Shown: positions 1 through 5,136 of the stretch, piece by piece
Numbering within the stretch: position 1 is the first letter of the stretch
Layout of the letters: every line of letters starts with the position of its first letter
From: Alphaproteobacteria bacterium
GTDB taxonomy: Bacteria > Pseudomonadota > Alphaproteobacteria > Sphingomonadales > JAKSBY01
Reading direction: 5' to 3'
Length of the DNA stretch: 44,186 bases
Assembly: GCA_021774625.1 (NCBI GenBank)
Contig: JAJFIV010000017.1
Location: 1 to 44,186, forward strand
The notes under the pieces: model-generated
Told to the model about the DNA's origin: nothing
The model's database searches: none
Seen by the model: the letters and a program-made list of their open reading frames with translations, nothing else
Made by a program: the position numbers and the translations under genes

Positions 1-804
1 TTTGATAAAATCTTCGGCGGTGCCTGGCACGACGGCTTCAATGACTTGCATCACCAATGGTGTGGCGTAGTTATCATATACAAAAGAACTCTGCGACTCT
101 GGGGTAATGGGTCCGCTCTGTTCAAAAATGGCTTGAACCAACCTTTGGCCTTCTACCTGGTCAGGATATTTGTCGAATGCTTCTCTTTGCTCTTTGCTGA
201 TGCTGATACCGGTATGCATGGTCAACGCCCGATGCAGGGTAACCCTTTCTGCGCCCTCAGCAAATTTTGTCGGGTCCAGCTCTTTGAGAAAGCTGATCAC
301 AGGTTTGTCTAAATCCGCCATGGCCAGATAGCCCAGCTGGATTGCGCGGCCAAGCGCCAAGCTGGTATAGGTTTTCGTTGCTGACGCCTGCGGATGGGTC
401 AGGTTGATACGACCCCGCGCATAATAGGATTCAAACAAGAGCTTGTCCTTGTGGGCAATAAGTAGGCTGTCGAAATCCCCGTGCTGGCCGTCGGACATCT
501 CCTGGGCCAGCTTGACAATCATGTCTTTGTTGCCGCCATCGACGCCCAATTCGCCCACCATGATACCGTCTTTTCGGTCCGCCGGTGCTGTATCGATAAG
601 GCCCTTTTCGAGTTGCGGCACATCCCAGATCTTAACAAGATCGTCATCATCGGTCGGCCATGCTGTCGCGATATGATCCACATTGGAATTGTCCCAGATA
701 TGAGCGCCTTGCGCCGGCTCCTTTGCTTCCAGCGTCTGATTTGCCGCGCCATCCGCAATCAGGAAAGCAGACAACAATATTATGCTTGGTGAAAAACGTT
801 TCAT
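1..804 (-). CDS. Serine hydrolase, class C beta-lactamase superfamily (3' end outside window)
   Basis: Reading the minus strand from the ATG at 804 gives 268 codons with no stop up to the window edge, so the C-terminus is missing. The protein begins MKRFSPSIILLSAFLIADG, a likely signal peptide, and an AAGG ribosome site lies about nine bases upstream. The nucleophile motif S-A-T-K (residues 141-144) matches SxxK, and Y-D-N (243-245) matches the YxN motif of penicillin-binding-protein-like serine hydrolases. The family includes AmpC, esterases (EstB) and D-aminopeptidases, so a true beta-lactamase activity cannot be claimed. It follows the hydrolase/PD40 gene in the same direction by 76 bases and is probably the last visible member of the blaI-led cluster. 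Its KTG motif would lie outside the window. Confidence 0.85.
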   Translation of the reverse strand, partial: MKRFSPSIILLSAFLIADGAANQTLEAKEPAQGAHIWDNSNVDHIATAWPTDDDDLVKIWDVPQLEKGLIDTAPADRKDGIMVGELGVDGGNKDMIVKLAQEMSDGQHGDFDSLLIAHKDKLLFESYYARGRINLTHPQASATKTYTSLALGRAIQLGYLAMADLDKPVISFLKELDPTKFAEGAERVTLHRALTMHTGISISKEQREAFDKYPDQVEGQRLVQAIFEQSGPITPESQSSFVYDNYATPLVMQVIEAVVPGTAEDFIK

Positions 805-880
805 AATATGACCTTTTTGATAGGTTGTAAGTCTAATCTTGTTTCAAGGAGCACCCTTTGTTTCTGCTCTAACGGCCCTG

Positions 881-2518
881 TTACTTAGTTTGCATTTTAG
901 GCCTGAGATTTTCGATAACTTGAGCATCCACCCAAAATATATCCACGTTATCGTATGAGTCTGAGCCCATATTCCTGTTGAAAAAAAGATATTTACCATC
1001 TGGCGTCACACTTGCCCCTGCCTCCCAAGCGTCTGTGTTTATCTTGTCGCCCAGGTTGATGGCTTCGCCCCATGAACCGTCCCGCTGCCTGAAACTGAGG
1101 TAAATATCGGAATCGCCATATCCGCCCTCCCGTTTGCCATCCCATAAAATATAGGACTCGTCCGAAGCGATGAAGGGATGGGCATTCCAGGTGCCGGTAT
1201 TTATTTCTTTAGGCAGGGGCCTCGGGTCTTCACGCTTGCCGTCAATGAGCCGCGAATAGCGAATAACGCCATCTCCGTCGGTGCCAACCTCATCAAAAAC
1301 AAAAGTGCCCTTGGCTGAAGATGTAAGGCGCATAATGCTGATTTCTTCGAATGGAGAGCCAAGGCTTTCTCTCTCTGACCAGCCAGTGACCGTGCGCACC
1401 TTAAATCGCTTGCCCAAATACATCGTCTTGCCGTCAGGCGCGATGAAGGCTTGACCCACTCTGGGTCCTAGAACTGTCTCATGCCACCGGCCGTTCTCAT
1501 TTTCAAAAACAACAAATTCTTGTTTGTTATTTTCTTCATCATTTCTGAGGAAGTAGAATTCTTTCATATCGGGTGTGAAGGCACCCCCATATTCCCAACC
1601 CGTGGTTGTAACAATGCCGGGTGCAAAGGGTTCAGGGGTTAAGCCGGGAGGCGTTTGCCCAAGATACTGGTTTGGATTGCTACTCCTTTTGGATAACCAC
1701 TTTACGCCTCGTATCACAGTCTCCGGAAAGGCCGTGCTATGGTTCGAATCTTCGATTATCTCGAGGCCCGTAAGCGCGAGGCCTGCCTCGCTTCTCCGCC
1801 GCAGCACCTCTATGAAATGGTCAACCTTTTCACGTTGATCCGCTTCTTGTTCGCCGAGGGATACAAAGACATTTACGTTCATCTCATCTTGACGAAGAGC
1901 GGTTTCTGCTTCGAATTCATCAATATACGGAAGGCCAGTCGTACCAAAAGCGGGACTGCCAAGGATATAATGCTTAAATGTGTCCGGTTGCGCCAATAAA
2001 ATGTAAGCGCCGAATGTTCCGCCCAGCGAATAACCGAAATAGGTGCGTTCACTTGGAATTGTTCGATATCTGGTTTCAACATACGGCATCACTTCATTGC
2101 GAATAAAATCCAGATGATTGCTGGCTTGCCCGCCTTGAAATCGAGCTTGATTTTCAGGGTTGTTGAATGCCGTCACGGAATAATCGCGAAATCTGCTTGC
2201 ATCTGCCCGTACATCGACATGATTTTTTTGATAGGAAATGCCGACCAATATAACCTCTGGCATCAAAAATTCGGTGGAACCAGACAGCATATCCATGTGC
2301 ACCACCGCATCGGTTGTGTAGATCACCGGGTATCTGGTGTCGGCATTTTCCGCATAATCTTCGGGCAGTTTGACATAAAGTTCATATTGTCGGTCGGTAC
2401 CGTTTTCCTGAATCGGTGCGACCTCAGTTCGCGGCATTTCATAAGGCTTAAGCTCGCTGGCCTGGGCACTGGCTAACGGTAACAAGATCAATGAAGCCAA
2501 GACGACGATTTTCTTCAT
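881..2518 (-). CDS. Secreted alpha/beta-hydrolase (esterase) fused to PD40-type beta-propeller
   Basis: 545 residues from MKKIVVLASL, chosen over an ATG 11 codons upstream because it begins a clear signal peptide (cleavage after SAQA, about residue 20) and has GGGA seven bases before it. Residues 30-280 look like an IroE/Fes-type esterase (COG2819): the nucleophile elbow G-Y-S-L-G-G puts Ser at about 164 and a candidate catalytic His lies at about 260 (DSNHS). From about residue 300 to the end, repeated W/F-x-x-D-G-K-x-(L/M)-Y-F-type blades (FTPDMKEFYFL, IAPDGKTMYLG, VTPDGKYLFFN) indicate a PD40/TolB-like propeller. Family knowledge suggests hydrolysis of an ester or peptide in the periplasm or outside, with the propeller as a binding platform; the substrate is unknown. 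It lies between the M56 protease and the serine hydrolase, same strand. Confidence 0.85.
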   Translation of the reverse strand: MKKIVVLASLILLPLASAQASELKPYEMPRTEVAPIQENGTDRQYELYVKLPEDYAENADTRYPVIYTTDAVVHMDMLSGSTEFLMPEVILVGISYQKNHVDVRADASRFRDYSVTAFNNPENQARFQGGQASNHLDFIRNEVMPYVETRYRTIPSERTYFGYSLGGTFGAYILLAQPDTFKHYILGSPAFGTTGLPYIDEFEAETALRQDEMNVNVFVSLGEQEADQREKVDHFIEVLRRRSEAGLALTGLEIIEDSNHSTAFPETVIRGVKWLSKRSSNPNQYLGQTPPGLTPEPFAPGIVTTTGWEYGGAFTPDMKEFYFLRNDEENNKQEFVVFENENGRWHETVLGPRVGQAFIAPDGKTMYLGKRFKVRTVTGWSERESLGSPFEEISIMRLTSSAKGTFVFDEVGTDGDGVIRYSRLIDGKREDPRPLPKEINTGTWNAHPFIASDESYILWDGKREGGYGDSDIYLSFRQRDGSWGEAINLGDKINTDAWEAGASVTPDGKYLFFNRNMGSDSYDNVDIFWVDAQVIENLRPKMQTK

Positions 2519-2580
2519 AATATTCCCATTAATTATGTGCGAACTATTCAACCCAGTTTCTGGGAAAGCTGGCGTTCAAT

Positions 2581-3879
2581 TCATTGAAGAAACTTATCCA
2601 ATTGCAGCTTCAATTCCTCGACGGTTTCCGCTGATGTTACGAAATACATTTTTACGGCTACATTTTTGATTTCAAATTCTTGAGGTGCGGCCACCCATCC
2701 GGCGATGGTGGTTTTGGCGTTGGCTTCGAAACAAGGGTGTGTGGAAACAATAACCTGCGGATTATGCGCGCTCCCGTCTCGACGAACATCATGTTTTAGA
2801 ACGACCAAACCCAATTTCACTACATGTTGTGGAACGATCATTCCGTTGATCGTGGACGTCGTCTTTTCATATTTAACGTCATCCAGTTTTAGACCGGGGC
2901 AGCTAGCGGGCAATTGTGGCGAGGTTTGCTTTGCATATTCAATCTGGTCGAGTTCCATATTTAGCACTTCCACTGTGGCGGAAGCCGGTGAGTTCAAAAA
3001 GCCGATCAGACTTGCCCCAAAAGTGGATAACAGGATCGCTACGCTCCAACGATGTTTGTGCGGATTGGGCACATTCTCGATGATCCCGGTTAGCCGCATT
3101 TTGACGTCCCGATGGCGCTTTGAGGTGAGATGGGCAGTCGGGCAAGGCAAGGCTCGTCTGCCTGCATGATCTCCGCCCGACCGCAAAACATTCAGCAAAA
3201 GCGCAGCATAGTTTTTGCGTTCGGATGCGCTGAGTTCCTGTGTTGCCGCATGGTCTGCGCGCAGTTCAATCGACAGGCGCCATTGCCGCACAAGGTAGCC
3301 AATTCCGGGATTGCTCAACATTAAGTCGCGCAAAAGCAACAACAGCAGTGTAAGCTCCGCATCATAGTGTCTTAGATGGGTACGTTCATGCGCTATCAAC
3401 GCGGTTTGAGTTTCCAATCCCGAAGGAATTAAGACCGCTCTGCGCGGCCAGGAAAGCGTCAAGGGTGGTATATCGGAAGTTGTTGTGAAAACATCGGGAT
3501 TGGGAGTTGCCGCGAAAGGCAGTTTCTGCAAACGCGACCACTGCCAAAGAGTCCGGCCCATTAACAAGATGCCAAGGCCGATATATATGGCCAAATAATT
3601 AAGCGGCGAAGAATCCGTTACCGAGACATCACTGGCTTGGCTCGAAAATACTTCCGGCATTTCTATTTTTGGCAAACCGAATACCGCGTCGAACGGGATT
3701 ACAAAAAGTAAGCCAGGCAAAATGCTGATCAGGATTAGTCCCAACCAGATATTTGCGGCTGGAAAGCTTGCTCCAACCTTTCCGTTACCGTCACGCTGCA
3801 AAATCCAGGCGATGCCTGCAACGACGAGGCTCCACAGATGGACAAGGATCAGTGCCTTAATCATCATCGCCACTTTCAT
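2581..3879 (-). CDS. BlaR1-type M56 membrane metallopeptidase with TonB-C-like C-terminus
   Basis: 432 residues. Hydrophobic N-terminal segments (about 6-26, 44-62 and 95-112) precede the zinc protease motif H-E-R-T-H at about 164-168, typical of Peptidase_M56/BlaR1. Another membrane segment lies around residue 280. The last ~80 residues (VVLKHDVRRDGSAHNPQV ... GWVAAPQEFEIKNVAVKMYF) resemble a TonB C-terminal domain, not the penicillin-binding sensor domain of classical BlaR1/MecR1. In the family, the protease senses a signal and triggers cleavage of the BlaI repressor; here the signal is unlikely to be a beta-lactam bound by a transpeptidase domain. The gene overlaps the end of blaI by 23 bases. 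ATGs at 3867 or 3864 (overlapping the blaI stop) are equally plausible starts. Confidence 0.85.
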   Translation of the reverse strand: MKVAMMIKALILVHLWSLVVAGIAWILQRDGNGKVGASFPAANIWLGLILISILPGLLFVIPFDAVFGLPKIEMPEVFSSQASDVSVTDSSPLNYLAIYIGLGILLMGRTLWQWSRLQKLPFAATPNPDVFTTTSDIPPLTLSWPRRAVLIPSGLETQTALIAHERTHLRHYDAELTLLLLLLRDLMLSNPGIGYLVRQWRLSIELRADHAATQELSASERKNYAALLLNVLRSGGDHAGRRALPCPTAHLTSKRHRDVKMRLTGIIENVPNPHKHRWSVAILLSTFGASLIGFLNSPASATVEVLNMELDQIEYAKQTSPQLPASCPGLKLDDVKYEKTTSTINGMIVPQHVVKLGLVVLKHDVRRDGSAHNPQVIVSTHPCFEANAKTTIAGWVAAPQEFEIKNVAVKMYFVTSAETVEELKLQLDKFLQ

Positions 3880-4228
3880 TGAGAAGACGGTCCAATTCCA
3901 GCCACTCCATTTCGGACAACATTTTGCTATCGTGAAAGGCAGCGGTCGGTAGCGGGCCTTTCATTTCCAGAACAGTGCCGAAGAACTCGCGCATGACGCC
4001 CGACAATGTACGGGCTTTGCTGTCCACAGGCGTATAAACGCGCACTCCATGTTTGGTGTTGGGCCGAAGTAAAGCCTTATCCACCATACGCGAAAGTGTC
4101 GTACGTGTCGTCGAGAACGACCAGTCCAATTGAGGGCCAGCTTTTTCTTGGATCTCTCGAGCAGACAATGGCGCTTCAACCCAGAGGACTTTCAGAATCG
4201 CAAGTTCGGATTTGCTTGGTTGTGTCAT
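3857..4228 (-). CDS. BlaI/MecI/CopY-family winged-helix repressor
   Basis: 123 residues, the usual length for the family. The N-terminal half (SKSELAILKVLWVEAPLSAR ... SFSTTRTTLSRMVDKALL) is the characteristic BlaI winged helix with the TTRTTLSRMVDKxLL recognition region. The C-terminal third is the helical dimerisation part, where family members are cleaved. It is the first gene of a run blaI, M56 protease, esterase/PD40 and serine hydrolase, all on the minus strand. A palindrome inside the predicted promoter spacer would allow autorepression. The ATG at 4228 is the only in-frame start that keeps the whole domain; no Shine-Dalgarno sequence is visible in front of it. Confidence 0.9.
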   Translation of the reverse strand: MTQPSKSELAILKVLWVEAPLSAREIQEKAGPQLDWSFSTTRTTLSRMVDKALLRPNTKHGVRVYTPVDSKARTLSGVMREFFGTVLEMKGPLPTAAFHDSKMLSEMEWLELDRLLNESGDDD

Positions 4229-4235
4229 ATATAGA

Positions 4236-4265
4236 CATGTATGTTACATCAGTAACATCTGTCAA
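4236..4265 (-). promoter_or_regulatory. Predicted blaI promoter with operator in the spacer
   Basis: On the minus strand TTGACA (4265-4260) is a perfect -35 hexamer. Seventeen or eighteen bases downstream is only a weak -10 (ATACAT or TACATG, 4242-4236). The spacer holds a perfect inverted repeat, TGTTAC-N4-GTAACA at 4242-4257 (extending by one pair to 4241-4258), similar in layout to BlaI/MecI operators with TAC-N-GTA half-sites. A second, looser inverted repeat TGTC-N7-GACA lies at 4223-4237 and covers the start codon. Repressor binding would block polymerase directly. A start site near 4229 would make the transcript nearly or fully leaderless. Confidence 0.6.
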
Positions 4266-4545: not shown

Positions 4546-5136
4546 TTACAAACAAAATGGATGAGTCGGACATGGCTCAGGATCGGCCAGGACCGTTATG
4601 TTGACGGATGCCGTGTCCGTCCCGCCATGACCGTCACTGATTGTATAAGTAAATGTGTCCGAGCCACTTCGGTTAGACACAAAACGAACTTTTGTTCCAC
4701 TGCTGACAATACTCGTCGTGCCGAAAGTTGATGTGCTTACGGATGTGATGGTCAGGGGCTGGCCTTCAGGATCGTTATCATTATTCAGAACGCTCAAATT
4801 AAGCGCAACGCCAACATTAAGTGTAAAGGAATCATTTACCGCATTGGGCGGCTGATTGGGTGCACCGATTGTCCGTTCAATCCGGTTGCCCGCCGCATCG
4901 TAGACATATTCGATGACCTGATCCGACCCTCCGGGCCCGCCACCCGGCATCGTCACCTTCACGACCCGCCCGAGCACGTCATATTCGTAGCAGACCGATT
5001 GCGTGCAGGCGGCCTGCGCCTCGTTCGGCACCGCTACAGACGCCACCAGCAACAGCAGCATCCCAAGCACAAAAAAAGCCGGTCTTGTGAGACCAGCCTT
5101 GAAAACACGGTGAATACAGGATCGATTAAAATCCAT
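4546..5136 (-). CDS. Small secreted RHS/YD-repeat protein with cadherin-like domain
   Basis: 196 residues; AGGA lies six bases before the ATG. A long signal peptide or N-terminal anchor (hydrophobic core FFVLGMLLLLVASVAV, ending NEAQA at about 42) is followed by two YD (RHS) repeats, YEYDVLGRVVKV and YVYDAAGNRIERT, at about 50-90. Residues 95-185 match the Ig/cadherin-like fold found in VCBS-type adhesins (NDSFTLNVGVALNLSVLNND ... FTYTISDGHGGTDTASVNI). The short tail carries Cys-Pro (EPCPTHPFCL). Full RHS proteins have dozens of YD repeats forming a shell; two cannot, so this may be a surface protein, a truncated derivative or a decayed RHS locus. The function is unknown. Confidence 0.75.
   Translation of the reverse strand: MDFNRSCIHRVFKAGLTRPAFFVLGMLLLLVASVAVPNEAQAACTQSVCYEYDVLGRVVKVTMPGGGPGGSDQVIEYVYDAAGNRIERTIGAPNQPPNAVNDSFTLNVGVALNLSVLNNDNDPEGQPLTITSVSTSTFGTTSIVSSGTKVRFVSNRSGSDTFTYTISDGHGGTDTASVNITVLADPEPCPTHPFCL

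Follow-up and report, generated by a model that had tools for sequence, protein, structure and literature searches.

Gene content and organization of the locus

We examined a BlaI/M56-type regulatory locus at one end of a 44,186-nucleotide stretch of DNA from a marine-type alphaproteobacterium of the Sphingomonadales (GenBank assembly GCA_021774625.1, contig JAJFIV010000017.1, positions 1 to 44,186 of the forward strand; hereafter the window). The window constitutes contig C9 of a genome assembled into 35 contigs (2.99 Mb in total), and its base 1 is the first base of C9. Four genes form a minus-strand run at positions 1-4228, as an earlier note made from the sequence alone had stated, and all four encoded proteins match Pfam profiles above the cut-offs. 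The first gene (3857-4228) encodes a BlaI/MecI-family repressor of 123 aa (PF03965, 66.8 bits, cut-off 22.6). It is followed by genes for an M56 protease with a C-terminal domain like that of TonB (2581-3879; PF05569, 44.7 bits, cut-off 31), a secreted IroE-like esterase (residues ~41-238) fused to a PD40 propeller-type domain (residues ~284-545; gene at 881-2518; PF00756, 63.9 bits, cut-off 22; PF07676, 37.1 bits), and a class C-like or family VIII-type serine hydrolase, hereafter BLC (1-804; PF00144, 36.7 bits, cut-off 27).

The reading frames of BlaI and M56 share 23 nt, and gaps of 62 and 76 nt precede the two following genes. Similar spacing was found in the seven operons that we tabulated, the window included: BlaI and M56 overlap by 8-23 nt, and the gap from M56 to the next gene is 38-74 nt. 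The BLC gene of the window is truncated by the contig end and lacks its C-terminal part. A search of the assembly did not recover this part, the sole other match (25% identity) being at contig C18. Before blaI, an operator-like dyad (TGTTAC-N4-GTAACA; 4242-4257) is located 14 nt upstream of the ATG, immediately preceded by a -35-like box (TTGACA; 4260-4265, minus strand).

Conservation of the M56 neighborhood

A search for the M56 protein in one genome per species yielded six named loci: two metagenome-assembled genomes (MAGs) of Marinicaulis (L078 and L083), two Robiginitomaculum MAGs (L079 and L080), Kordiimonas aquimaris (L081), and Eilatimonas milleporae (L082). Among 396 genomes of the window's order, we found four full orthologs (G000, G045, G057, and G229), one 72-residue remnant (G304), and two distant relatives (G005 and G017). 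With G045 and G057 taken as the same loci as L081 and L082, there are eight distinct intact loci; this count includes L080, whose M56 reading frame breaks toward the end and whose sequence was used unaltered. Eilatimonas belongs to Kordiimonadales, Marinicaulis to Parvularculales, and Robiginitomaculum to Maricaulales, such that the subfamily spans at least three alphaproteobacterial orders. The M56 subfamily is nevertheless rare and patchy, because only one of the 385 genomes in a class-wide sample, namely the window's own, contains it; a search of a plasmid collection for this subfamily returned no match.

In all eight intact loci, the next same-strand gene after M56 encodes a BLC, an esterase, or a PD40 protein. 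Four of these eight (the window, L099, L078, and L083) keep the order BlaI-M56-X-BLC, with X being an esterase and/or a PD40 protein. For comparison, we used other M56 loci of relatives (58 M56 matches in 34 of 60 genomes, from which the 30 with loci were scanned with flanks of ~1.5 kb). These controls have a BlaI neighbor in 28 of the 30 cases, whereas a gene of the hydrolase set comes next in only two, both IroE-like esterases, and PD40 or BLC in none. The conservation of the neighborhood, which the earlier note had proposed to check in other genomes, thus holds for the adjacency of M56 and hydrolase genes at every intact locus and for the full gene order at half of them.

Several loci outside the subfamily are related in part. 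The second M56 protein of the window's own genome has a separate BlaI partner and no adjoining hydrolase of these families; this pair is located on contig C8 (L001:385-2954), and its M56 has a long charged C-terminal tail. In the genomes with distant relatives (L115 in G005 and L117 in G017), an IroE-like esterase gene comes immediately after an M56 gene of another subfamily; these two cases suggest that BlaI/M56 and IroE-like esterases may have been brought together more than once. Distant BlaI and M56 genes also occur at L052:6473-8181 and L053:5835-7597, with a BLC-related gene ~3 kb away in both. The C-terminal domain of the L052 M56 is a Peptidase_M23, i.e., another sensor swap on the M56 scaffold.

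Putative operator and promoter

The 38 bases before the blaI ATG can be aligned without gaps in all eight loci, with a mean pairwise identity of 0.765 compared to 0.27-0.30 further upstream. Within this footprint, an invariant CTTGAC is followed by the dyad, which deviates by no more than one mismatch and lies 14 nt before the ATG at the same spacing in 8/8 loci. Furthermore, in 37 loci comprising 646,758 bases (a set that holds two overlapping pairs, L039/L081 and L040/L082), every dyad site with at most one mismatch sits before blaI (10 rows, corresponding to eight distinct sites). No dyad was found at the hydrolase genes in the loci scanned, and the sole conserved operator-like site is the one at blaI.

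The whole genome of the window contains a single dyad site at up to one mismatch, compared with 19 for a backwards control. At one mismatch, three other M56-bearing genomes have 14, 4, and 2 sites compared with 24, 18, and 15 in the control. Because of the single site in the window's own genome and the lack of excess in the three others, the dyad data speak for one operon rather than a wide regulon, and we rejected the dyad as evidence for wider regulation. The window also encodes, just upstream of the operon (4546-5136), a short secreted protein in which RHS/YD repeats are combined with a Big_9 domain.

The repressor and the M56 protease

The window BlaI aligns with MecI (1sd6) over residues 5-117, with its Phe98 on MecI Phe102. 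The known BlaI cleavage bond is Asn101-Phe102 (PMC9834060). An Ala-Ala-Phe at the predicted cleavage site is shared by all eight BlaI orthologs and is absent from the other BlaI of the same genome. Identity to the window's proteins among the orthologs is 81-89% for BlaI and only 50-65% for M56, a difference that would follow from a fixed operator and a drifting sensor.

The M56 protein has a BlaR1-like layout of four hydrophobic segments, with an HExxH motif (residue 164) in the stretch linking segment 3 to segment 4. No Pfam match to a penicillin-binding (class D-like) sensor domain was found in the window protein or seven orthologs, and the NCBIfam blaR1 equivalog model scores 19.1 bits against a cut-off of 400. 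The TonB_C profile (PF03544) reaches 17.9 bits in the window protein, below its cut-off of 24.6. It matches six of the seven orthologs scanned, two of them above the cut-off (26.0 and 26.3 bits), and the seventh is the broken L080 sequence.

A model of the M56 protein was built with AlphaFold2 on eight sequences. Its C-terminal domain (residues ~312-420) matches TonB and FusB C-terminal domains at Z 8.9, with root-mean-square deviation (rmsd) of 3.0-3.1 over 83-84 residues (7zc8 and 1u07), and further TonB entries match at Z 7.5-8.9, with model quality there being only moderate. The protease part matches Staphylococcus aureus BlaR1 at Z 8.1 (rmsd 4.7 over 156 residues). In a Foldseek search with this model, the families of the TonB C-terminal domain and BlaR1 were also listed first, and a profile of the M56 alignment had no match among PDB sequences at 0.01. 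The earlier note had described a protease lacking a penicillin-binding sensor and had regarded a clear beta-lactam sensor as a finding that would speak against its reading. The lack of such a Pfam match agrees with this description; however, the protein is not without a candidate sensor, as a TonB-like domain is present at its C-terminus. Because this tail replaces the penicillin detector, the M56 switch probably reports something other than penicillin.

Properties of the hydrolases

The nearest solved relatives of the esterase half are 2qm0 BES and the siderophore esterase 6gud (IroE-like), and its translation contains the nucleophile motif GxSxG as GYSLGG. For BLC, we modeled the full-length protein of K. 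aquimaris (mean predicted local distance difference test score, pLDDT, of 74.0). Its structural matches include Lsa45 (Z 30.1), the 6-aminohexanoate-dimer hydrolase NylB (29.2), and PIB-1 (27.8), followed by EstG (27.6), a family VIII carboxylesterase (27.5), and AmpC types (~24). The nearest NCBIfam model, 3-succinylated cholic acid synthase, scores far below its cut-off.

The motif set of class C beta-lactamases (SxxK, YxN, and KTG) is not retained in the BLC family. SxxK and the Tyr of the Y-x-N box are found in 21/21 members, whereas the Asn of that box is aligned in 12/21. In place of the KTG-type box, the 20 full-length members carry a stretch that is mostly W/Q-GGG; the window copy ends before this region. 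Although a common fold does not establish function, an esterase or amidase is a better guess for BLC than a beta-lactamase. A plain beta-lactamase operon was rejected, given these motif departures and the esterases and amidases among the closest folds.

The hydrolase module beyond the switch

BLC (counted at E 1e-40) is present in 19 of the 396 genomes of the window's order. Only four of these have an intact M56 beside it and one has an M56 remnant; because of this, we conclude that the hydrolase module predates the BlaI/M56 switch or is more widespread than it. We inspected all 24 BLC places in context, which correspond to 22 loci as three genes of G101 form one cluster. Esterase or PD40 genes accompany BLC in 16 of these loci. 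Intact BlaI/M56 was found in three of the 16, and neither BlaI nor M56 was detectable near BLC (E 1e-5) in the other 13. According to the earlier note, hydrolases occurring apart from blaI/M56 in relatives would count against its four-gene cluster, and these 13 loci represent exactly such a separation.

The phylogeny of BLC was inferred from 21 sequences, excluding the fusions (L089, L091, L093, and L094), near-duplicates (L044 and L092), a single sequence (L098), and a fragment from L079. The copies from the window, L078, L083, L099, one from L079, and the remnant locus L090 group in a single clade (100/100) that does not include the M56-adjacent copies of Kordiimonadaceae. Mapping the M56 label on this tree requires five changes, a result also reached by 71 of 500 shuffles. 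Because of these patterns in the tree, the association between M56 and hydrolases is stable in one lineage and has been made or lost more than once overall. At L090:6872-7102, a TonB-like end is all that survives of M56 before BLC, representing a decayed switch beside a kept hydrolase. At L079:15982-16488, a third and short BLC copy (168 aa; probably a fragment) closes a five-gene hydrolase series.

Fusions join the hydrolase parts pairwise: esterase-PD40 (the window), BLC-PD40 (L089, L093, and L094), and esterase-BLC (L091), which argues for one shared pathway or complex; PD40-PD40 fusions also occur (L078 and L083). The esterase-PD40 fusion noted earlier is thus real in the window, but among the loci examined it occurs in no other genome. 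Elsewhere, the two parts are encoded by separate genes, as in K. aquimaris, or belong to other fusions.

Other genes are found next to these modules in the relatives. An OmpR-type response regulator and a histidine kinase are divergent from the esterase/BLC/PD40 genes at L089:5399-7530 and L091:5265-7405, which looks like a change of regulator. At L095:6333-8618, a protein with Trans_reg_C and TPR domains (a CadC-like layout) is encoded divergently from a lone BLC gene. A cluster without M56 (L050) has one divergently adjoining TonB receptor. A family of ~210-aa proteins is located inside the clusters at L039:3158-3790 and L042:6743-7384; neither member has a Pfam match, and the L039 member also has no PDB sequence match.

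Proposed mechanism and alternative explanations

The gene content, neighborhood, operator footprint, domain architecture, and catalytic motifs computed here point to an autoregulated, inducible BlaI/M56-TonB operon for ester or amide hydrolysis in the envelope or by secreted enzymes, a reading that we consider rather likely. From these features, we infer that BlaI would bind the dyad between the -35 box and its own gene start, and so repress blaI, M56, and the following hydrolase genes as a single transcription unit. The M56 protein would span the inner membrane, with its TonB-like domain serving as the sensing or docking part in the periplasm. When a signal or partner is met, the zinc protease would cut BlaI before Phe98 and the operon would be expressed. 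The predicted products are exported serine hydrolases of esterase/amidase type and PD40 propeller proteins, which may act in one pathway or complex. They may target an extracytoplasmic compound with ester or amide linkages, such as a nutrient, a siderophore-like molecule, a foreign antibiotic, or an envelope glucan of the cell itself.

Several observations weigh against this reading. In addition to the 13 hydrolase loci that have no BlaI or M56, K. aquimaris has three genes of the hydrolase set upstream of blaI without a dyad. A promoter-like site (9/12) at 831-803, in the gap between the esterase and BLC genes, makes internal promoters possible; the simple promoter scan called four promoter-like sites in the region compared with 6.3 in shuffles, and did not call the blaI promoter itself. 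The M56 model is weak (mean pLDDT 53.5) and reaches values of 70-84 only over most of its C-terminal part, from residue ~320 on. Finally, no TonB-dependent receptor was found among ten scanned neighbor proteins of the M56 loci.

Among the alternatives, a role in envelope homeostasis is possible, if unlikely. The hydrolases would then edit the periplasmic glucan or another envelope ester of the cell itself, and M56-TonB would read the envelope state. The alphaproteobacterial EstG, which has the same fold as BLC, offers a precedent, since the substrate of the Caulobacter enzyme is a cyclic glucose hexamer (PMC11389396). The OmpR-type two-component systems divergent from the module in two genomes would be compatible with such a role. 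However, many other folds match BLC as well as or better than EstG, and the patchy distribution of BLC in the order would be odd for a housekeeping function.

A more specific version of the inducible operon, which we put forward only tentatively and think unlikely, is that M56-TonB docks on a loaded TonB-dependent receptor, or on a partner with a TonB-box-like segment. BlaI would then be cleaved, and hydrolases for the same incoming compound would be released. The docking partner could be encoded away from the M56 loci. Similarly tentative is the broader view that such docking represents cell-surface signaling in which a single protease and a single repressor suffice and no sigma or anti-sigma factor takes part, with the hydrolase module having been re-wired to two-component systems in relatives. 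If true, docking would be a new way for Gram-negative bacteria to read the outer membrane.

It is improbable that the locus is a beta-lactam-inducible resistance operon, with the class C-like enzyme acting as a beta-lactamase and M56 sensing damage to the cell wall in an indirect manner, as has been proposed for BlaR of Mycobacterium tuberculosis. The homology of the switch proteins to BlaI/BlaR1 and the universal SxxK of the BLC enzymes would fit, and the BlaR1 homologue of M. tuberculosis, which has no sensor domain, is nonetheless tied to beta-lactam resistance (PMC9834060). Against this, the KTG-type motif is replaced and the YxN Asn is incompletely conserved, esterase and amidase folds are closer to BLC than AmpC is, and IroE-like esterases and propellers share the operon.

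Equally little probability is given to the possibility that regulation by BlaI/M56 is limited to its own genes, with the hydrolases being mere neighbors that have their own promoters. This would explain the hydrolase loci without a switch, the confinement of the dyad to blaI, and the possible promoter in the esterase-BLC gap. It is difficult to reconcile with the 8/8 adjacency across at least three orders, the short gaps, and the BlaI-M56-X-BLC order in half of the loci, or with the single clade formed by the BLCs of five M56 loci and the remnant locus.

Sensing of a metal such as copper seems very unlikely. In this scenario, the M56 activity would be metal-dependent, or Cys327, His363, His381, and Cys383 of the C-terminal domain would bind metal. 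The first three residues are found in 8/8 orthologs and Cys383 in 7/8, with the eighth sequence being broken there; yet the two cysteines may simply form a disulphide. The dyad core in several loci is of the TACA-N2-TGTA type, that of the CopY "cop box." PetP provides a precedent (PMC7896320). No metal homeostasis gene was found among the scanned cluster and neighbor proteins. Lastly, a phage-defence module was rejected, and the defence role raised in the earlier note has no support, as none of the five proteins that were scanned matched a PADLOC model at E 0.01 (0/5).

Comparison with known systems

The locus resembles the BlaI/BlaR1 and MecI/MecR1 systems, through which staphylococci induce penicillin resistance, in its winged-helix repressor, dyad operator, and cleavage-site Phe, as well as in the adjacent gene for a membrane M56 protease with four segments and HExxH. 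Unlike BlaR1 and MecR1, the window M56 has a TonB-like domain in place of the penicillin-binding sensor, and the outputs are secreted enzymes of esterase/amidase type and propellers. In M. tuberculosis, BlaI/BlaR controls the beta-lactamase gene blaC among others. Its M56 protein shares with that of the window the lack of a penicillin-binding protein sensor domain, whereas no TonB-like domain is reported for it in the accessible part of the source (PMC9834060). PetR/PetP of cyanobacteria is a pair of BlaI-like regulator and BlaR1-like protease with signal and targets unrelated to beta-lactams (PMC7896320). PetRP responds to copper and governs the exchange of plastocyanin for cytochrome c6, whereas the window has a hydrolase operon and a TonB-like domain. 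The principle of BlaI/M56 pairs without a penicillin sensor is already known, and the suggestion of a response not yet described was too strong in this regard. The operon and its esterase/PD40/BLC module seem to be unreported within the literature searched, as a search that covered few subscription journals yielded no description of a BlaI/M56-TonB operon containing these hydrolases.

For the enzymes, BLC shares the beta-lactamase fold and SxxK with family VIII carboxylesterases, EstG, NylB, and Lsa45, but its identity to them is only 13-23%. The closest solved relatives of the window esterase half, though distant, are the IroE/bacillibactin-type siderophore esterases (PF00756). Unlike those esterases, it is fused to PD40, and no siderophore genes were seen beside the locus.

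BlaI/M56 pairs are common, as illustrated by the presence of M56 in 34 of the 60 relatives, and few have a known signal. A small subfamily with recurring outputs, a clear operator, and a recognizable sensing domain is therefore tractable for asking what M56-TonB detects. These findings also advise caution against naming such loci beta-lactam resistance from BlaI, BlaR1, or beta-lactamase labels alone. A TonB family survey of 2007 reportedly included M56-TonB_C fusions ("MecR1-TonB") with the same two-domain architecture. To our knowledge, the outputs and function of those fusions have not been established, whereas the M56-TonB protein of the window is linked to one operon.

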